DNA of 41,308 nt from Candidatus Rokubacteria bacterium CSP1-6 (GTDB lineage Bacteria; Methylomirabilota; Methylomirabilia; Rokubacteriales; CSP1-6). The stretch spans positions 1,509-42,816 of the forward strand of contig LDXP01000014.1 of assembly GCA_001443385.1 (NCBI GenBank), in the 5' to 3' direction. Of this stretch, positions 3,707 to 12,416 are shown piece by piece. Position numbers and translations under genes: made by a program. How positions within the stretch are numbered: position 1 is the first letter of the stretch; each line of letters starts with the position of its first letter. The notes beneath the pieces are model-generated. The model was not told the origin of the DNA, ran no database searches, and worked only from the letters and a program-made list of their open reading frames with translations.

Positions 3707-4489
3707 TTGGGCGTCCGCCTCCCGTACCGCGGCTGGCTCTTCGATCTGGACGGCACCGTCTACCGGGGAGAGGCCCTGATCGAGGGTGCCGCCAAGGTCA
3801 TCGAGGCGCTGCGCGCGGCCGGGCGGCGCGTGGCGTTTCTCTCCAACAAGCCCATCCAGACCCGGGACGACTACGCCGCCAAGCTGACGCGCCTCGGCAT
3901 CCCCACCCGGTCGGAGGAAGTGGTCAACTCGTCCCTGGTCCTGGCCCGTCACCTGGCGCGAACGGATCCCGGCGCCGCCTGCTTCGTCATCGGCGAGCCC
4001 CCGCTGATCGGGGAGCTCCGGGCTCACGGCCTCGAGGTCCGCGACGACGAGCGGGTGGGCTGGGTGGTGATTGCCTTCGACAGGACGTTCACCTACGCCA
4101 AGCTCAACACCGCGCTCCAGGCGGTGAAGCGCGGGGCCCGGCTCATCGCCACGAACCCGGACCGGACCTGTCCCGTCGCCGGCGGCGAGATTCCCGACTG
4201 CGCGGGCATGACCGCGGCCGTGGAGGCCGTCACCGGCAAGACGGTCGAGCTGATCGTCGGCAAACCGTCCCCCCTCATGCTGGAGGTGGCGCTGGAGGTG
4301 CTGGGGCTCCCGGCCTCCGAGACGGTGATCGTGGGGGACAGGATCGAGACGGACGTCACCATGGGGAAAGCCCTGGGGCTGGGCACAGTCCTGGTCCTCT
4401 CGGGCGTCACTCCCCGCGACGATCCGCGGATCGCCGAGCTCAAGCCCGACCACGTCCTCACGTCGATCCGGGAACTCGTGGAACCATGA
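3707..4489 (+). CDS. HAD-superfamily subclass IIA (NagD-like) phosphatase
   Basis: Cytosolic haloacid-dehalogenase-type phosphatase of about 260 residues. All four HAD motifs are visible: motif I FDLDGTVYRG with the aspartate nucleophile, motif II LSNK, the motif III lysine in VGKPSPLML, and the motif IV metal site VGDRIETDV. The cap between motifs II and III is of the C2a (NagD/AraL/phosphoglycolate phosphatase) type. Related enzymes hydrolyse small phosphoesters, including glycerol-3-phosphate, nucleotides and phosphoglycolate. Its position in front of glpD makes glycerol-3-phosphate or a related phosphate a reasonable guess, not a demonstrated substrate. No ATG or GTG fits. TTG 3707 is called, but CTG 3698, overlapping the nuoN stop as CTGA, is an alternative. 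The stop overlaps glpD (ATGA). Confidence 0.88.
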   Translation: MGVRLPYRGWLFDLDGTVYRGEALIEGAAKVIEALRAAGRRVAFLSNKPIQTRDDYAAKLTRLGIPTRSEEVVNSSLVLARHLARTDPGAACFVIGEPPLIGELRAHGLEVRDDERVGWVVIAFDRTFTYAKLNTALQAVKRGARLIATNPDRTCPVAGGEIPDCAGMTAAVEAVTGKTVELIVGKPSPLMLEVALEVLGLPASETVIVGDRIETDVTMGKALGLGTVLVLSGVTPRDDPRIAELKPDHVLTSIRELVEP

Positions 4490-6111
4490 GCCGATTGGGC
4501 GGGATCGAGAACCAGCAGTTCGACGTCCTCATCATCGGCGGCGGCATGGCCGGAGGGGGAGTGGCGCGGGACCTGGCGCTCCGCGGCGCCTCGGTCGCCC
4601 TCTTCGAGAAGGCCGACTTCGCCTACGGCACCACGTCCCGCTCCTCCAAGCTGATCCACGGCGGGCTCCGGTACCTCGAGCTCTTCGACTTCAAGCTCGT
4701 CCGGGAGTCGCTCAGGGAGCGGGAAACGCTGAGCCGTCTGGCGCCCCACCTGATCCGCCCGCTGCCGTTCCTGATCCCGATCTATCGCGGCGCGCGCCCG
4801 GGCCTCATCAAGGTGCGCATCGGGCTGGCGCTCTACGACTGGCTCACGCCGGGCAAGGCGACGGACCGCTACGGCGTGATCCGGCCGGAAGCCGCCCTGG
4901 CGCTGGAGCCCGAGATCCGCGCCGAGGACCTCCGGGGCGCGGGGTACTACTTCGACGATCTCCTGCTCTCTCCCGAACGCCTGTGCCTGGAGAACGTCCT
5001 CTCGGCCTGCCGTCACGGCGCCCGGGCGTTCAACTATGTGGCGGTCGAGGAGGTCCTCAGGGGCCCCAAGGGCATCGAGGGCCTCGCCGTCCGCGATCTT
5101 CTGACGGATCAGGTTCGACGCGTGAGAGGTCAGGTCATCGTCAACGCGGCCGGCCCCTGGGTGGATCAGATCCGGGCGCTGGCCGGCGTCCAGGACCGCG
5201 GCCCCCACGTCATCCGGACCACCAAGGGCGTTCACTGTCTGCTGCCGCGGCTGACCGAGCGCGCCGTGTACCTCCCGGCGCAGGATGAGCGGATGATCTT
5301 CGTGATCCCCTGGCGCGAGTTCTCGCTGGTGGGGACGACGGACACCGACTTCGACGGCAACCTGGACCGCCTCTGGGCCACGAAGGACGAAGTGACGTAC
5401 CTGCTGGAAGAGGTTCGGCGCGTCCTCCCCGACCGGCGCGTGACGGCCGACAACGTGCTGTACACCTACGCGGGGGTCCGGCCGCTGACCCACGAGCCGG
5501 GAAAGTCTCCCTCGAAGGTGTCCCGCCAGCACCGGGTGTGGGTGGAGGGTCCGGGCGGAAAGTTTCTCACGATCACGGGCACAAAGCTGACCTGCTTCAG
5601 GAGCCTGGCCGAGGCGGCGTCGGACCTCGCGATGGAGCGGCTGGGGCGCCGCGCTGCCGCGCGCACCGCGATGCTTACGCTTGACGGGGCGGATCAGAGC
5701 GCGGGACGGGTGGAGGCGCGGGCGTGGATGGACGTCTCGGCGGAGCTGGCGGCGACGGGGCTCCGGCGGGAGACGCTCGAGCGGCTCGTCGAGACCTACG
5801 GGCGCAGCTACGTCCGCGTCCTGGACCTCGCCCGGAAACTCTCCGACGGCGCCGAGCGGCTCTGCGGGCGCAACCCGGAGATCGTCGCGCAACTGCATTA
5901 CGCCGTCGCGGAGGAGCTGACCATCTCCCTCCAGGACTTCCTGCTCCGCCGCACCGGCATCGGCACCAGCCCCTGCCAGGGCCTCGACTGCGCCGGGCCC
6001 ATCGCGGCCCGCATGGCGGACCTCTTGGGGTGGAATGCCCGGCGGCGGGAGGCCGAGCTCGACGCCTTCCACGATCAGGTGAATCAGAGCCACCGCTTCC
6101 GCGAGCCGTGA
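4486..6111 (+). CDS. glpD: Aerobic glycerol-3-phosphate dehydrogenase (FAD, quinone-linked)
   Basis: Oxidises sn-glycerol-3-phosphate to dihydroxyacetone phosphate at the inner face of the membrane and passes electrons to quinone. The protein has 541 residues, the normal range. An N-terminal FAD Rossmann motif DVLIIGGGMAGGGVARDLAL (about residues 13-32) is followed by the family signature TSRSSKLIHGGLRYLE. A central substrate domain contains VGTTDTDFDG and TYAGVRPL, and a C-terminal helical cap (about 400-541) is present. The ATG overlaps the HAD stop (ATGA). It is followed by a diesterase and glycerol kinase, so the block covers glycerophosphate catabolism. The bases just after its stop encode a permease-like tail in the same frame (see the separate entry). 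Confidence 0.95.
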   Translation: MSRLGGIENQQFDVLIIGGGMAGGGVARDLALRGASVALFEKADFAYGTTSRSSKLIHGGLRYLELFDFKLVRESLRERETLSRLAPHLIRPLPFLIPIYRGARPGLIKVRIGLALYDWLTPGKATDRYGVIRPEAALALEPEIRAEDLRGAGYYFDDLLLSPERLCLENVLSACRHGARAFNYVAVEEVLRGPKGIEGLAVRDLLTDQVRRVRGQVIVNAAGPWVDQIRALAGVQDRGPHVIRTTKGVHCLLPRLTERAVYLPAQDERMIFVIPWREFSLVGTTDTDFDGNLDRLWATKDEVTYLLEEVRRVLPDRRVTADNVLYTYAGVRPLTHEPGKSPSKVSRQHRVWVEGPGGKFLTITGTKLTCFRSLAEAASDLAMERLGRRAAARTAMLTLDGADQSAGRVEARAWMDVSAELAATGLRRETLERLVETYGRSYVRVLDLARKLSDGAERLCGRNPEIVAQLHYAVAEELTISLQDFLLRRTGIGTSPCQGLDCAGPIAARMADLLGWNARRREAELDAFHDQVNQSHRFREP

Positions 6112-6198
6112 TATATTTTGGGGCGCCTTTTCCCTGGCCCCGTCATCCTCTTCATGCAGCGGTGGTTCGTGAAGGGCCTCATCGAGAGCGACAAGTGA
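6112..6198 (+). pseudogene. Residual C-terminal tail of an ABC sugar/glycerol-3-phosphate-type permease
   Basis: The 28 codons immediately after the glpD stop, in the glpD frame, read YILGRLFPGPVILF then [14 protein letters not shown] and a stop. The second half closely resembles the extreme C-terminus of MalG/UgpE-type ABC permeases, which usually end in a pattern like QRYFVxGLxxGAVKG. Nothing of the rest of such a permease remains. Its TGA overlaps the start of the downstream diesterase as GTGA, as if it were once a full gene coupled to it. I infer a deletion that removed glpD-proximal transporter genes and left this tail. A coincidental short ORF cannot be ruled out. Confidence 0.55.
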
Positions 6199-6977
6199 GC
6201 GCGGGCGCAATCGGGGCGCGGGCGGTTGGGACGCTCCTGGCGGCTCACCGGGGGGGCGCGCAGATCTGGCCCGAGAACAGCCTCCTCGCCTTCAGGAACG
6301 CCATCGCCCTCGGCGCCGACTTCCTGGAGTTCGACGTGCACCTGAGCAAAGATGGTGAGGTGGTGGTGATCCATGACCCGACCGTGGAGCGGACCACCAC
6401 GGGGGCGGGGGCTGTGAGCGACCGGACGCTCGCCGAGCTCAGGACGCTCCGCCTGAAGGGCAGGGACGGGAAGGGTACGGAGGAGGCGATTCCCACCCTG
6501 GACGAGGTGGTCGGGCTGGCAGCGCCGACCCCGGTCCGGCTCCTGCTGGAGATCAAGGTGGACGCGCGCGGCGGCCGTTATCCCGGGATCGAAGAGAAGG
6601 CCCTCGTCATCCTCGACCGCCACGGGATGGCCGGCCGGACGCTCGTCATGGCCTTCCAGGAGGAGACGGTCCGCCGGATCAGGACGCTGCGGCCGGAGGT
6701 GTGGGTCGGGGGACTGTGCGAGAAGCGGGATCTCGCCGAGATGCGGTCCACGGTCGAACGGGAGATCGAGAGGCTCCGGGACGCGGGAGCGCGCTTCATC
6801 GGGCTCCACCAGGGGCTGGTCACCCCCGACGTGGTCGAGCAGGCCGAGCAGGCAGGGCTCCTCCTGGGCGTGTGGACGGTGAACGACGCGGGGGCCATGA
6901 AGCGGTTCATCGAGCTGGGCGTGGGGATCCTCATCACCGATCGCCCCGACGTCGCCAGGGAGCTGCTCGGCCGATGA
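6195..6977 (+). CDS. ugpQ: Glycerophosphodiester phosphodiesterase (cytosolic type)
   Basis: Hydrolyses glycerophosphodiesters (deacylated phospholipid headgroups) to glycerol-3-phosphate and an alcohol. The 260-residue protein shows the GDPD metal and catalytic motifs: [17 protein letters not shown] near residue 15, [18 protein letters not shown] near 45-62, and LLLEIKVD. The C-terminal LGVWTVND and ILITDRPD end a TIM barrel. There is no signal peptide, so it is probably cytoplasmic like UgpQ rather than periplasmic GlpQ. The GTG start at 6195 overlaps the stop of the permease remnant (GTGA) and the stop overlaps glpK (ATGA). Its product would go directly to GlpD. Confidence 0.92.
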
Positions 6978-8473
6978 CGGCCGGGCGCCACGTGCTCGCG
7001 CTGGACCAGGGCACCACGGGCTCGACGGCGCTGGTCGTGGACGCGGAGGGGGAGGTCCGCGGGCGCGGCTATGCCCTACTCCCGCAGTACTTCCCGCGGC
7101 CGGGCTGGGTGGAGCACGATCCCGAGGAGATCTGGACGACCACGGAGCGCGCGGCCCAGCAGGCCCTGGCGGCGGCGCGCGTTACCGGGGGCGAGCTGGC
7201 AGCGATCGGGATCACCAACCAGCGCGAGACCACGATCCTCTGGGACCGGAAGACGGGTCACCCGATCCACCGCGCCATCGTCTGGCAGTGCCGGCGCACG
7301 GCCGGGCTCTGCGAGCGGCTCCGGTCCGACGGCCTGGAGGTCCTGTTCAGGCGGAAGACCGGCCTCGTCCTGGACGCCTACTTTTCCGGGACCAAGATTC
7401 GTTGGCTCTTGGATGAAGTCCCCGGCGCCCGCCGTCAGGCCGAGAGCGGCGGGCTCGTCTTCGGCACCGTGGACTGCTGGCTCCTCTGGAAGCTTACCGG
7501 GGGCCGGCGGCACGCCACCGATCCGTCGAACGCGTCCCGGACGCTCTGCTTCGACATCCTGTCGCTCGGCTGGGACGCTGAGCTCGCGGGGGCCCTGGCG
7601 GTTCCGATGAGCGTCTTTCCCGAGGTGAGACCCTCGGCGGGAGTGTTCGGCGAGACCGCGGACCTGGGGTGGCTGCCCGCCGGAATCCCCGTGGCCGGGA
7701 TTGCCGGAGACCAGCAGGCCGCGCTCTTCGGGCAGGTCTGTTTCCAGCCCGGAATGGCCAAGAACACCTACGGCACCGGCTGCTTCATGCTCCTCAACAC
7801 CGGACCCACCCCGGTGCCGTCGAAGGAGGGCCTGCTCACCACGGTGGCGTGGCAGACGGGCGGGACGACGACTTACGCGCTGGAGGGGTCGGTCTTCATC
7901 GCGGGCGCCGCCATCCAGTGGCTCAGGGATGGCCTCGGCCTGATCGCTCACGCGGCGGAGAGCCAGGAGCTCGCCGAGTCGGTGGACGACACCGGCGGCG
8001 TGTACCTCGTCCCCGCCTTCGTGGGGCTCGGCGCCCCGTACTGGGACATGTACGCGCGGGGGACCATCGTGGGGATCACGCGGGGCACCGCCCGGGCGCA
8101 CATGGTCCGCGCGGCGCTGGAGGCGATCGCCTACCAGAGCCGGGACGTGCTGGAGACCATGGCGGCCGAGGCCGGCGCGTCGCTCCGGTCGCTCCGCGTG
8201 GACGGCGGAGCGGCGGCCAACGACTTCCTCTGCCAGTTCCAGGCCGACCTGCTGGACGTCCCCGTCCTGCGCCCGTCGGTGACCGAGACGACGGGGCTGG
8301 GCGCCGCCTACCTGGCGGGGGTGGGGGCCGGGCTCTGGAAGCCGGACGAGCTGGCGGGACGGTGGAGACTCGACCGACAGTTCACGCCGGCGATGGACGA
8401 GGGGCGCCGGAACGCGCTGTACGGCGGCTGGCGACGGGCCGTCGAGCGGTCCCGCGGCTGGGCAAACTCATGA
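6974..8473 (+). CDS. glpK: Glycerol kinase
   Basis: ATP-dependent phosphorylation of glycerol to sn-glycerol-3-phosphate in the cytosol; FGGY kinase family. The 499-residue length is exact for GlpK. The phosphate-1 motif [15 protein letters not shown] is at the N-terminus, followed by [16 protein letters not shown] and QCRRTA. Family signatures [26 protein letters not shown] and [12 protein letters not shown] follow, and [19 protein letters not shown] lies in the second domain. The ATG overlaps the diesterase stop. No glycerol facilitator (GlpF) gene is present in the window, so glycerol entry must be encoded elsewhere, occur by diffusion, or use the adjacent ABC importer. Confidence 0.97.
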
Positions 8474-8493: not shown

Positions 8494-9624
8494 ATGAAAC
8501 GCACGACGTTGACGGCCGTGGCGCTGCTGCTGGCAGCTCTGGTGGGCGGCGCCGGCCTGGCGCAGGCACAGGCGCCCATCGAGGACGAGCTGGTGCTGCA
8601 GACGCCGGTCTCCAAGTTCATCGTGGACGCGGCGCTGAAGGCCTTCGCCCAGTACGCGAAGGAGAAGTGGAACGTGAACCTCAAGACCAACGCGCTCTAC
8701 GCCGGGACCCCGGTTTCCTACGGCAGGATCGTGGAGTGGAAGGGGAAGCCCGAAGTAGACATCTTCTGGGGCGGAGAGTCGGCGCTCTTCGACAAGCTGG
8801 CCGAGCAGAAGCTCCTCGTCAAGGTCGAGATCTCCAAAGCGGCCTGGGACGCGATCCCCGCCTCCATCGGCAAGCCGAAGCCGGTCCCCCTCAAGGACCC
8901 CAACGGCTTCTGGGTCGGGACCGCGCTCGAGCCCTACGGCCTCGTCTACCATCCAAGGGTCCTGAAGCGGCTCGGGGTGGCCGAGCTCAAGGACTGGGAG
9001 GACGTGCTGAACCCCAAGCTCAAGGGCAACGTGGCCCAGTGCGCCCCGACCCGCTCCTCCTCCTCCCACGCCACCTACGAGGTTATCCTCCAGGAGAAGG
9101 GGGACGCCAAGGGATGGGAGTGGCTGCAGCGGCTGGCCGCCAACTCGGGCATCTTCACCGCCCGGAGCCGGGACGTTCCGTCGGTGGTGGCCAAGGGCGA
9201 GTTCGCCGTCGGGTTCGCGGTCCCGTCCTACATGGCCTTCGAGGAGAAGCTGGCGGGCTTCGACATCAAGTTCGTGGCGCCGAAGAACGCCTTTGTGACC
9301 CCGGAGCCCATGGGGATCCTGGCGGGCGCCAAGCATCCCAAGGCCGCCCGGGCCTTCGTGGAGTTCCTCCTGACCGAGCAGGGGCAGCGGGTGTTCATGG
9401 AGCGCGGCCTCTTCCCCATCACCCCCAAGTACAAGGTCCAGGGCCCCCCCGGCTCCACCGCGGAGCTGGCGGTCGAGTTCACCGGCGGGGTGCGTTCCTA
9501 CTTCGACGCGCCGGTCTCCAACATCTACGACGACGACATCGCGCAGAAGCGCTACAAGGAGGTCAACGAGCAGTACCGGAAGGACATCGAGGCGGTCCTC
9601 GACGACCTGAAGAAGAAGTACTAA
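8494..9624 (+). CDS. ABC importer periplasmic binding protein, FbpA/AfuA/PgtC-like family
   Basis: Periplasmic solute-binding protein of 376 residues with a cleavable signal peptide (MKRTTLTAVALLLAALVGG, cleavage likely after AQA). The fold family is that of FbpA/AfuA/PgtC, whose members bind iron(III), sugar phosphates, phosphoglycerate or polyamine-like ligands. The consecutive tyrosine pair that coordinates iron in FbpA is not evident. The corresponding stretch reads GFAVPSYMAFEEKL with one tyrosine, which argues against iron. The start is set by AGGAGG five bases before ATG 8494; an upstream ATG at 8470 overlaps the glpK stop and lacks such a site. The linked glp genes suggest an organophosphate or polyol ligand, by inference only. 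Confidence 0.88.
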   Translation: MKRTTLTAVALLLAALVGGAGLAQAQAPIEDELVLQTPVSKFIVDAALKAFAQYAKEKWNVNLKTNALYAGTPVSYGRIVEWKGKPEVDIFWGGESALFDKLAEQKLLVKVEISKAAWDAIPASIGKPKPVPLKDPNGFWVGTALEPYGLVYHPRVLKRLGVAELKDWEDVLNPKLKGNVAQCAPTRSSSSHATYEVILQEKGDAKGWEWLQRLAANSGIFTARSRDVPSVVAKGEFAVGFAVPSYMAFEEKLAGFDIKFVAPKNAFVTPEPMGILAGAKHPKAARAFVEFLLTEQGQRVFMERGLFPITPKYKVQGPPGSTAELAVEFTGGVRSYFDAPVSNIYDDDIAQKRYKEVNEQYRKDIEAVLDDLKKKY

Positions 9625-9634
9625 TGACGAAGAC

Positions 9635-10717
9635 GTGAAGATCGTCCTGCGCGGGGTCGCGAAGAGGTTCGGGAGCGTCACCGCCGTCGATCGGGCGAGC
9701 CTCGACGTCGGCGACGGGGAGCTCTTCACGCTGCTCGGCCCATCGGGCTGCGGGAAGACGACGCTCCTGCGCCTCGTCGCCGGCTTTTACCAGCCGGACG
9801 CCGGTGAAGTCGTGTTCGGGGACCGTGTCGTCAACGCGCTTCCTCCGTATGCGAGGAACATCGGCATGGTCTTCCAGAACTACGCGCTGTGGCCCCACAT
9901 GAGAGTCTTCGCCAACGTGGCCTACGGGCTCCGCCTCCGGAAGCTCGGCCGGAGCGAGATCGAATCGCGCGTGATGGAGGGGTTGAGAAAAGTCAACCTC
10001 TCGGGCCTGGAGGGGCGGTATCCGGGCCAACTCTCGGGCGGCCAGCAGCAACGGGTCGCGCTGGCGCGCGCCCTCGTGCTGAATCCGGATTTCCTCCTCC
10101 TGGACGAGCCGCTCTCCAACCTGGACGCGAAGATCCGCGTCCAGGTCCGGGCCGAGATCCGCAAGCTGCAGAAGGAGCTCGGCATCACCGCCCTCTACGT
10201 CACCCACGACCAGGAGGAGGCGCTCTCGCTCTCCGACCGGGTAGCGGTCATGCGCGACGGCAAAGTGTTGCAGGTCGGGACGCCCAAGGAGCTCTACGAG
10301 CGGCCGCTGACGCGGTTTGTCGCCGATTTCGTGGGGACCAACAACTTGCTCCAGGGTACCGTCAAGGAGCGGCGAGGGGAGGAGCTTCTCGTGGAGACGG
10401 CGCTGGGGGTCTTCCGCGCGATGCCGAACAGCGGGATCGGGCCCGGCGACGCCTGCGTGCTGGCCATCCGGCCCGAGAACGTGGCGATCGGGAGCGGACC
10501 GGCGGCGGCGTCCGACGGCAACGTGATTCGGGGGAGGGTGACCTTCGCCTCCTATCTCGGCAACACCCTCCGCTACGACGTGGAGGTGGAGCGCGGACAG
10601 GTGGTCAAGGCCGACATCCGCGACCCCTGGCACCACGAGCCGTTCGCCCTGGGGCAGGCCGTCACGGTCTCCTTCCCCCCGTCGGTAACGCTCGCCATCG
10701 CCGATGACGCCGCCTGA
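9635..10717 (+). CDS. ABC importer ATP-binding protein, FbpC/PotA-like
   Basis: Cytoplasmic ATPase of the adjacent importer, 360 residues. Walker A GPSGCGKTTLLRLVAG, Q-loop MVFQNYALWPH, signature LSGGQQQRVALARAL, Walker B FLLLDEPLSNLD and the switch histidine in YVTHDQEEAL are all intact. After about residue 240 a TOBE-type regulatory domain follows (VGTNNLLQGTV and AIRPENVAIG). The GTG at 9635 starts right after a four-codon mini-ORF (ATG ACG AAG ACG TGA) that begins on the last base of the binding-protein stop codon. The gene overlaps the permease by 14 nt. Confidence 0.93.
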   Translation: MKIVLRGVAKRFGSVTAVDRASLDVGDGELFTLLGPSGCGKTTLLRLVAGFYQPDAGEVVFGDRVVNALPPYARNIGMVFQNYALWPHMRVFANVAYGLRLRKLGRSEIESRVMEGLRKVNLSGLEGRYPGQLSGGQQQRVALARALVLNPDFLLLDEPLSNLDAKIRVQVRAEIRKLQKELGITALYVTHDQEEALSLSDRVAVMRDGKVLQVGTPKELYERPLTRFVADFVGTNNLLQGTVKERRGEELLVETALGVFRAMPNSGIGPGDACVLAIRPENVAIGSGPAAASDGNVIRGRVTFASYLGNTLRYDVEVERGQVVKADIRDPWHHEPFALGQAVTVSFPPSVTLAIADDAA

Positions 10718-12416
10718 CGGCCGCGCCACGGTCCTCGTCGCGCCCCGGCCGTGGGCGAAGGCCCTGCCGGCACTTGGCGTGGCGCTCATCTGGGCGTTCC
10801 TGATCGTCTTCCTCGTCTATCCGCTCCTCCGGCTGTTCTACGACGCCTTCACCGATGATGCGGGGCGGTTCACGCTGCTGAATTTCTACGAGTTCTTCAC
10901 CGACCGGTTCTACCTGCGCTCGCTCTGGAACTCCATCCTCCTCGGAGTCGGAACCGTCGTCGCCACCTCGGTGCTGGGCGTCGCCATCGCCTTTCTGCTC
11001 GTTCGGTACGACTTCTGGGGGCGGAGCGTCTTCTCCTACCTGACGCTGATCCCGATCATCTCGCCGCCTCTGGTGGGGGTGCTCGGGTTCACCTTCATCA
11101 TGGGGCGGGCGGGCACCATCAACGTCTTCCTGATGGATTACCTGGACATGCTCACGCCTATCAACTTCGTCTACGGGATCCACGGCGTGCTCCTGGTGGA
11201 GACCCTGCACCTGTTTCCGATGATCACCCTAAACGTCGTGGACGCGCTCGGCAAGGTGGACCCCTCGCTGGAGGAGGCGGCGGAAAGCGTCGGCGCCCGG
11301 GCCTGGCGGAAGACCTGGACCATCACCCTGCCGCTGACGACCCCCGGGTACATGGCCGGGGCACTCCTGGTCTTCATCTGGACGTTCGCCGACTTCGCGA
11401 CCCCGTTGATCCTTGGCGTCCACGACCTGCTGGCCTCTCAGGCCTACCTGAACGTCGTCCAGTTCGTGGACCGGCGCCTCTTCAGGATGGGGATCGTGAT
11501 CTCAGCGCTCATGGTGATCCTGGCCGTGCTCTTCCTGATCGCCGCCAAGCAGTATGTGGCCATCAAGGACTACTCCTCGCTCGCCTATTCCAAGGTGGAG
11601 CGGCGGCGCCTGTCCCCCGTGAAGCAGATCCTGGTCGTGGCAGCGCTCTCGTTCGTGATGCTCCTCTCCTTCATCCCCTACATCGGGGTGACGCTGGCGG
11701 CCTTTGGGAAAGGATGGTCGCTGACTCTGGTCCCCCTCCAGTACACGCTCCAGTACTTCGAGCGGGTCATTGTCGAGACGCCGAAGTACATCCTGAACAG
11801 CTTCCTGTACTCGGGCATCGCCGTGGGGCTCTGCATCCTGGTCGGGGTGCCGATCGCGTGGATGCTCGCGCGAACCCGGTTGCCGGGAAACGGGGCCCTG
11901 GACGCCTTGAACACGTTGATCCTGGCCATCCCGGGCACCGCCGTCGGCATCGCCTACATCCGCGCCTTCCACGTGGAGATCCCGGGGCTCGGAGTCGCCC
12001 TCACGAGCGTCTGGATCATCATGCCCCTGGTGCTGGCGGTGCGCCGCCTGCCCTACACGGTGCGCGGGAGCTACGCCTCGCTCCTGCTGGTCCATACCTC
12101 CATGGAGGAGGCGGCGGCCAACGTGGGGGCCACAGGGTTCCAGACGTTCAGGGACATCACGCTGCCGCTGATCTGGAAGGGGGTCCTGGTGGGCGGGCTC
12201 TTCTCTTTCATGACGTCGCTCCAGGAGGCTTCGGCCACCTTGTTTCTGTCCCTGGGGGGCTGGGAGATGATGACCGTCGGGATCTTCAACTTCTACATCG
12301 CGGGGAGCGCCAACGAGGCGGCCGCCCTGGGCTTCATCCTCATCGTGGTGGCGGCTCTCTCCCTGATCGTGATCAATAGGGTGGCGGGGACTCGCATGGG
12401 TGGCATGTTCGGCTAG
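10704..12416 (+). CDS. ABC importer permease, FbpB-like, two fused transmembrane domains
   Basis: Inner-membrane channel of the importer, 570 residues with about 12 hydrophobic helices arranged as two homologous halves. Each half carries the EAA loop that docks the ATPase: EEAAESVGARAWRKTWTITL near residue 190 and EEAAANVGATGFQTFRDITL near residue 470. This fused layout is typical of FbpB/AfuB iron or sugar-phosphate permeases, so a single gene provides the complete channel. ATG 10704 lies inside the ATPase gene with a 14-nt overlap. It is the last gene of the glycerophosphate block; about 137 bases separate it from the next coding start. Confidence 0.93.
   Translation: MTPPDGRATVLVAPRPWAKALPALGVALIWAFLIVFLVYPLLRLFYDAFTDDAGRFTLLNFYEFFTDRFYLRSLWNSILLGVGTVVATSVLGVAIAFLLVRYDFWGRSVFSYLTLIPIISPPLVGVLGFTFIMGRAGTINVFLMDYLDMLTPINFVYGIHGVLLVETLHLFPMITLNVVDALGKVDPSLEEAAESVGARAWRKTWTITLPLTTPGYMAGALLVFIWTFADFATPLILGVHDLLASQAYLNVVQFVDRRLFRMGIVISALMVILAVLFLIAAKQYVAIKDYSSLAYSKVERRRLSPVKQILVVAALSFVMLLSFIPYIGVTLAAFGKGWSLTLVPLQYTLQYFERVIVETPKYILNSFLYSGIAVGLCILVGVPIAWMLARTRLPGNGALDALNTLILAIPGTAVGIAYIRAFHVEIPGLGVALTSVWIIMPLVLAVRRLPYTVRGSYASLLLVHTSMEEAAANVGATGFQTFRDITLPLIWKGVLVGGLFSFMTSLQEASATLFLSLGGWEMMTVGIFNFYIAGSANEAAALGFILIVVAALSLIVINRVAGTRMGGMFG

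Follow-up and report, generated by a model that had tools for sequence, protein, structure and literature searches.

A probable deletion scar of a ugpB-ugpA-ugpE importer between glpD and a glycerophosphodiester phosphodiesterase gene in Candidatus Rokubacteria

The short segment between the glpD-like gene and the glycerophosphodiester phosphodiesterase (GDPD) gene in the 41,308-nucleotide stretch of the Candidatus Rokubacteria bacterium CSP1-6 genome analyzed here (the window) is very probably the deletion scar of a ugpB-ugpA-ugpE importer. The stub left in the segment is the 3' end of ugpE, relatives retain the ancestral gene order at this place, and UgpB and UgpE are absent elsewhere in the genome that carries the window (G000). 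A preliminary description made from the window alone had interpreted the segment as the remnant of ABC transporter genes that once followed glpD and were almost entirely deleted; that interpretation is correct in substance and largely supported by our comparison. The features of the locus are collected in Table 1. The glpD-like gene to the left of the scar scores 349.8 bits against NF008899, just under the cut-off of 360.

Table 1. Features of the glpD-GDPD interval and its neighbors, in window coordinates.
Feature	Coordinates	Strand	Basis or remarks
glpD-like glycerol-3-phosphate dehydrogenase, left of scar	4486..6111	+	PF01266, PF16901; stop TGA 6109-6111
TGATATATT, extended -10 promoter-like element	6109..6117	+	from ugpB upstream region; overlaps glpD stop
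glpD-ugpB intergenic remnant	6112..6141	+	aligns with G016 glpD-ugpB spacer TATAGTTTGAGCGCCTTCTCCCGAACCCCGT
Deletion junction	6140..6143	+	CCGT common to both parental sequences
Last 18 codons and stop of ugpE	6142..6198	+	profile match, 57-base DNA match, own-genome match
GDPD, glycerophosphodiester phosphodiesterase	6195..6977	+	PF03009, E 9.3e-47; GTG start overlapping ugpE stop
51 bases (17 codons, signal-peptide-like segment) missing relative to G001	6211..6212	+	alignment; G001 and G002 N-termini
glpK glycerol kinase	6974..8473	+	ATGA overlap with GDPD; named by sequence resemblance
FbpABC-like ABC importer genes	8494..12416	+	named by sequence resemblance and the preliminary description

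Translation of positions 6112-6198 on the forward strand, directly after the glpD stop, gives a 28-residue tail whose stop codon (6196-6198) shares bases with the GTG at which the diesterase gene starts (6195-6197); the resulting GTGA, reported in the preliminary description, is indeed present at 6195-6198. A search of this peptide against NCBIfam (18,950 models, E<=10) returned a single match, to the C-terminus of UgpE (NF008210, profile positions 258-281 of 281, E 4.9e-4, 19.9 bits), and a Pfam search with the same very short piece returned no match, including none to PF00528. The full UgpE of a relative, searched against the window's own genome, finds window positions 6115-6195 (E 1.4e-4). 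At the DNA level, the last 57 bases of the stub are identical at 53 of 57 positions to the intact ugpE ends at three loci (L045, L060, and L076) and at 55 of 57 to a similar stub in the relative G001, and the best other 57-base stretch on either window strand reaches a maximum of 34/57. The ugpE match is far beyond chance. The preliminary description had read the tail as a MalG/UgpE-type permease C-terminus. The UgpE profile match bears this out, but only for the 3' two-thirds of the tail, about 18 of its 28 residues; ugpE begins at about 6142, and thus the first ten residues, YILGRLFPGP, are a read-through of glpD-ugpB spacer DNA rather than permease sequence.

The assignment to UgpE rather than to another permease of this fold family is based on profile comparisons. 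The MalG/SugB permeases (PDB 2r6g, 7cad, 8ja7) belong to the same fold family and possess a similar C-terminal FVxGL motif, but the intact UgpE of relative G016 scores 68 bits against the MalG profile NF008231 (cut-off 261), far weaker than against UgpE, where it reaches 326 bits (NF008210, cut-off 297). MalG identity was rejected on this better match to the UgpE profile, and the earlier suggestion that the lost genes were possibly ugp-type is confirmed by the same score and by the UgpE identity of the stub. These matches identify the permease as UgpE, the sn-glycerol-3-phosphate ABC permease. Although the tail fits the C-terminus of the UgpE profile, its 19.9 bits lie below the curated cut-off of 297, and the stub is therefore a fragment without permease function and not a functional UgpE member. 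The permease core (PF00528, EAA loop) is deleted at the site, and contig C14 near 7600 has no PF00528 match.

The relatives belong to Candidatus Rokubacteria, and at most of their loci the order is glpD-ugpB-ugpA-ugpE-GDPD(-glpK), placing intact ugpB-ugpA-ugpE exactly between glpD and the diesterase gene at the junction proposed for comparison in the preliminary description. In G016, whose GlpD is 85% identical, glpD is followed by ugpB, ugpA, ugpE (protein ending in ALLPPVAVILFMQRWFVKGLIESEK), GDPD, glpK, and then an FbpA-like gene; the first 124 residues of its UgpB-like neighbor match NF008211 with an E of 5.9e-33, the bits of this piece being below the whole-protein cut-off. The FbpABC-like importer of the window is not a replacement for the lost genes, because it is found 3' of glpK also in genomes that keep ugpBAE; it is an old neighbor of the locus.

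In the alignment to G016, the window corresponds to the glpD-ugpB spacer between the glpD stop and about 6143, and to ugpE from about 6140 onward. The four bases shared at the junction by the parental sequences (G016 left flank ..ACCCCGTAGG, G016 ugpE ..TTGCCGTCATC) may represent a 4-base microhomology. An element of the form TGnTATA[G/T]T lies between glpD and ugpB at 26 of 31 cassette loci; shuffling gives an expectation of 0.06. At the five cassette loci without the element in this position, other cassette types come first, and three of these five carry tandem cassettes in which the element precedes the second cassette. It occurs as a single copy in the 41-kb window, both strands considered. 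The stricter GTGnTATAGT is present in five copies elsewhere in G000, in several cases shortly 5' of an open frame, a placement that fits a general extended -10 promoter. We infer promoter activity for the window element.

No match to UgpB was found in G000, G001, or G014, all of which carry stubs, and the closest UgpE-like protein elsewhere in G000 is only 29% identical. Relocation of ugp to another place in the genome was rejected on these grounds; because no UgpB or UgpE is detected elsewhere, the importer appears to have been lost from the window genome and not moved, with the qualification that G000 is a draft of 158 contigs and 90.9% completeness from which a relocated copy could be missing.

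The sister genomes bear on whether one deletion or two took place. By the bases of glpD and GDPD, G002 is nearest to the window (93% and 90%, with 87% and 83% for G001), and it carries an intact ugp cassette of a different type (L043, 11797-14843), the nearest type being that of GWC2_70_16 (L046). The G002 UgpE shares 81% identity with its L046 counterpart and about 50% with the common types. A chimeric ugpE tail arising by recombination between tandem cassettes was considered for G002 and rejected, as the gene pairs with that of L046 over its whole length (81%; last 40 residues 85%), and the G002 genes can be regarded as a separate cassette type. This suggests replacement or re-acquisition in G002. 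The stub in G001 contains more of ugpE and less of the spacer than that of the window. The window stub does share the glpD frame, as the preliminary description stated, but this is a coincidence, since the G001 stub lies in another frame. A junction test of G000 against G001 gave 10/14 against 7/14 matches (simulated P ~0.01), and the junction sequence thus favors deletions with different breakpoints in the two genomes. Their spacers, however, are nearly equal in length (83 and 84 bases). If G002 is included, parsimony favors one deletion followed by re-acquisition.

Forty-one loci carry glpD, namely the window and 40 named records, and all but L074, which ends at glpD, were informative (40 loci). 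A full-length or nearly full-length ugpE follows glpD at 28 of the 40, the cassette is partly seen at three (L054, L058, and L073), only a 3' ugpE stub is present at six (the window, L056, L049, L062, L066, and L071), and the remaining three (L044, L051, and L059) have no ugp. The extent of UgpE retained is about 126 residues at L049, 68 at L071, 44 at L062, and 66 at L066, and because these extents differ, the four stubs are best explained as separate losses. At L066 (11729-12382), two collapsed ugp cassettes lie in a row; in the first, which precedes the 66-residue stub, the start of a UgpB-like gene runs in frame into the end of another UgpE. Two ugpBAE cassettes of unlike type stand in tandem between glpD and GDPD at L055 (11693-17939) and L079 (9472-15668), and another such pair is found at L058 (6855-10541), its second cassette cut by the contig end. 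In G016 (L045, 14779-14880), an insert with the GC-rich inverted-repeat-like sequence GAGCGCCGGCTTGGCCGGCGCAACC is located between ugpE and GDPD; sequences like it also occur close to these genes in G021 (L006) and G018 (L036).

The diesterase gene of the window also differs at its 5' end. The 51-base gap is in frame, and the missing bases account for most of a hydrophobic, signal-like stretch in the G001 protein, the two sequences compared being VSAGAILAAALGLGLLVALGGSAGARAVG and one of 12 residues. Both G001 and G002 GDPD have a signal-peptide-like segment. It is plausible that the window GDPD is now cytoplasmic, following the loss of the importer. A GDPD without a signal peptide directly follows ugpE at L050, L052, L057, L063-L066, L076, and other loci; often a second GDPD comes after such signal-less enzymes, and in several instances its N-terminus is hydrophobic.

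Other origins for the segment were weighed against deletion. A chance match between permease C-termini and a short GC-rich spacer might be entertained for so short a peptide, given the simple composition of MalG-type C-termini, but the profile search returned a single family at E 4.9e-4 and the syntenic orthologues match at 53/57 bases against no better than 34/57 elsewhere; the syntenic comparison refutes this explanation, to which we give almost no weight. Misjoining of contig ends, one with glpD and the other with ugpE-GDPD, is conceivable in a draft metagenome assembly where the ugp cassettes of relatives are of several types and some tandem. It is nonetheless highly improbable, because a second genome, G001, has a similar stub; stubs of varied lengths occur in five other independently assembled genomes, and the junction lies outside any repeat.

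The stub might instead function as a short gene or leader peptide of 14 residues, beginning at the ATG at 6154 and selected to couple translation to the diesterase. The stop/start overlap is retained, and the stub in G001 is 55/57 identical even though the flanking genes have diverged by 27-34% at fourfold sites; this identity is compatible with either constraint or recent deletion. No Shine-Dalgarno-like sequence is found 5' of the ATG, synonymous conservation is not clearly raised at the 3' end of intact ugpE, and elsewhere GDPD comes after glpD or has no stub in front of it (L044), making a selected leader peptide unlikely. Purifying selection on the ugpE 3' DNA as a ribosome-binding region for GDPD was not supported, synonymous conservation in intact genes being only z ~1 above the gene average. 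A structured leader was rejected, as the RNA folds in no unusual way (z-score 0.45). With these results, and with relatives L044, L051, and L059 having no stub at all, a regulatory role for the stub can only be tentative.

In the deletion reading, the ancestral locus would have been glpD-ugpB-ugpA-ugpE-GDPD-glpK, with the ugp trio forming an importer of sn-glycerol-3-phosphate or a glycerophosphodiester. A deletion of about 3 kb would have started immediately 3' of the ugpB promoter, a short way past the end of glpD, and reached the codon of ugpE 18 from its end, leaving the -10-like element some 60 bases from the overlap of the ugpE stop and GDPD start. The former promoter of the importer operon, if active, would now drive GDPD-glpK directly, and the stub may persist as the holder of the GDPD leader and start region. 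On the simplest reading, surviving deletions must spare the GDPD start, because the permease end overlaps it.

A comparison with the E. coli ugpBAECQ cluster shows both likeness and disparity. The intact UgpE (NF008210) of the relative adjoins a glycerophosphodiesterase gene and is accompanied by UgpB-like and UgpA-like genes. In the window, in contrast, ugpB and ugpA are missing entirely and less than 10% of the permease is left, and, unlike in E. coli, none of the relatives' clusters showed ugpC and theirs are flanked by glpD and glpK. Prokaryotic gene remnants and pseudogenes arising by deletion are well described (surveys PMC522871, PMC9336565), and the window scar is an ordinary, well-documented gene-loss scar of this kind, a short 3' piece of a lost gene between conserved neighbors. 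It differs from the remnants in those surveys in recurring at one slot in one family with the ugpE 3' end always kept, and in also keeping a promoter-like element. No account of this glpD-GDPD slot was found in the open-access literature, and the ugpE stubs at this slot are new, as are the cassette replacement and tandem doubling. A broader reading, which we put forward tentatively and consider somewhat doubtful, is that the glpD-GDPD interval of Rokubacteria serves as a cassette slot where ugp importers have been repeatedly swapped, doubled, or deleted, that some deletions captured the promoter, sparing both that of ugpB and the end of ugpE and thereby maintaining expression of the diesterase and glycerol kinase, and that the window lineage lost first the importer and then the export signal of the diesterase.

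In conclusion, the scar shows, from both parental sequences, how an importer was cut out of an operon's interior without separating the genes 3' of it from a promoter-like element. At this one slot, an uncultured lineage of soil and groundwater has lost or replaced its glycerol-phosphate uptake several times independently. The metabolic reading of such draft genomes is also helped, as Ugp uptake should not be credited to the window genome.
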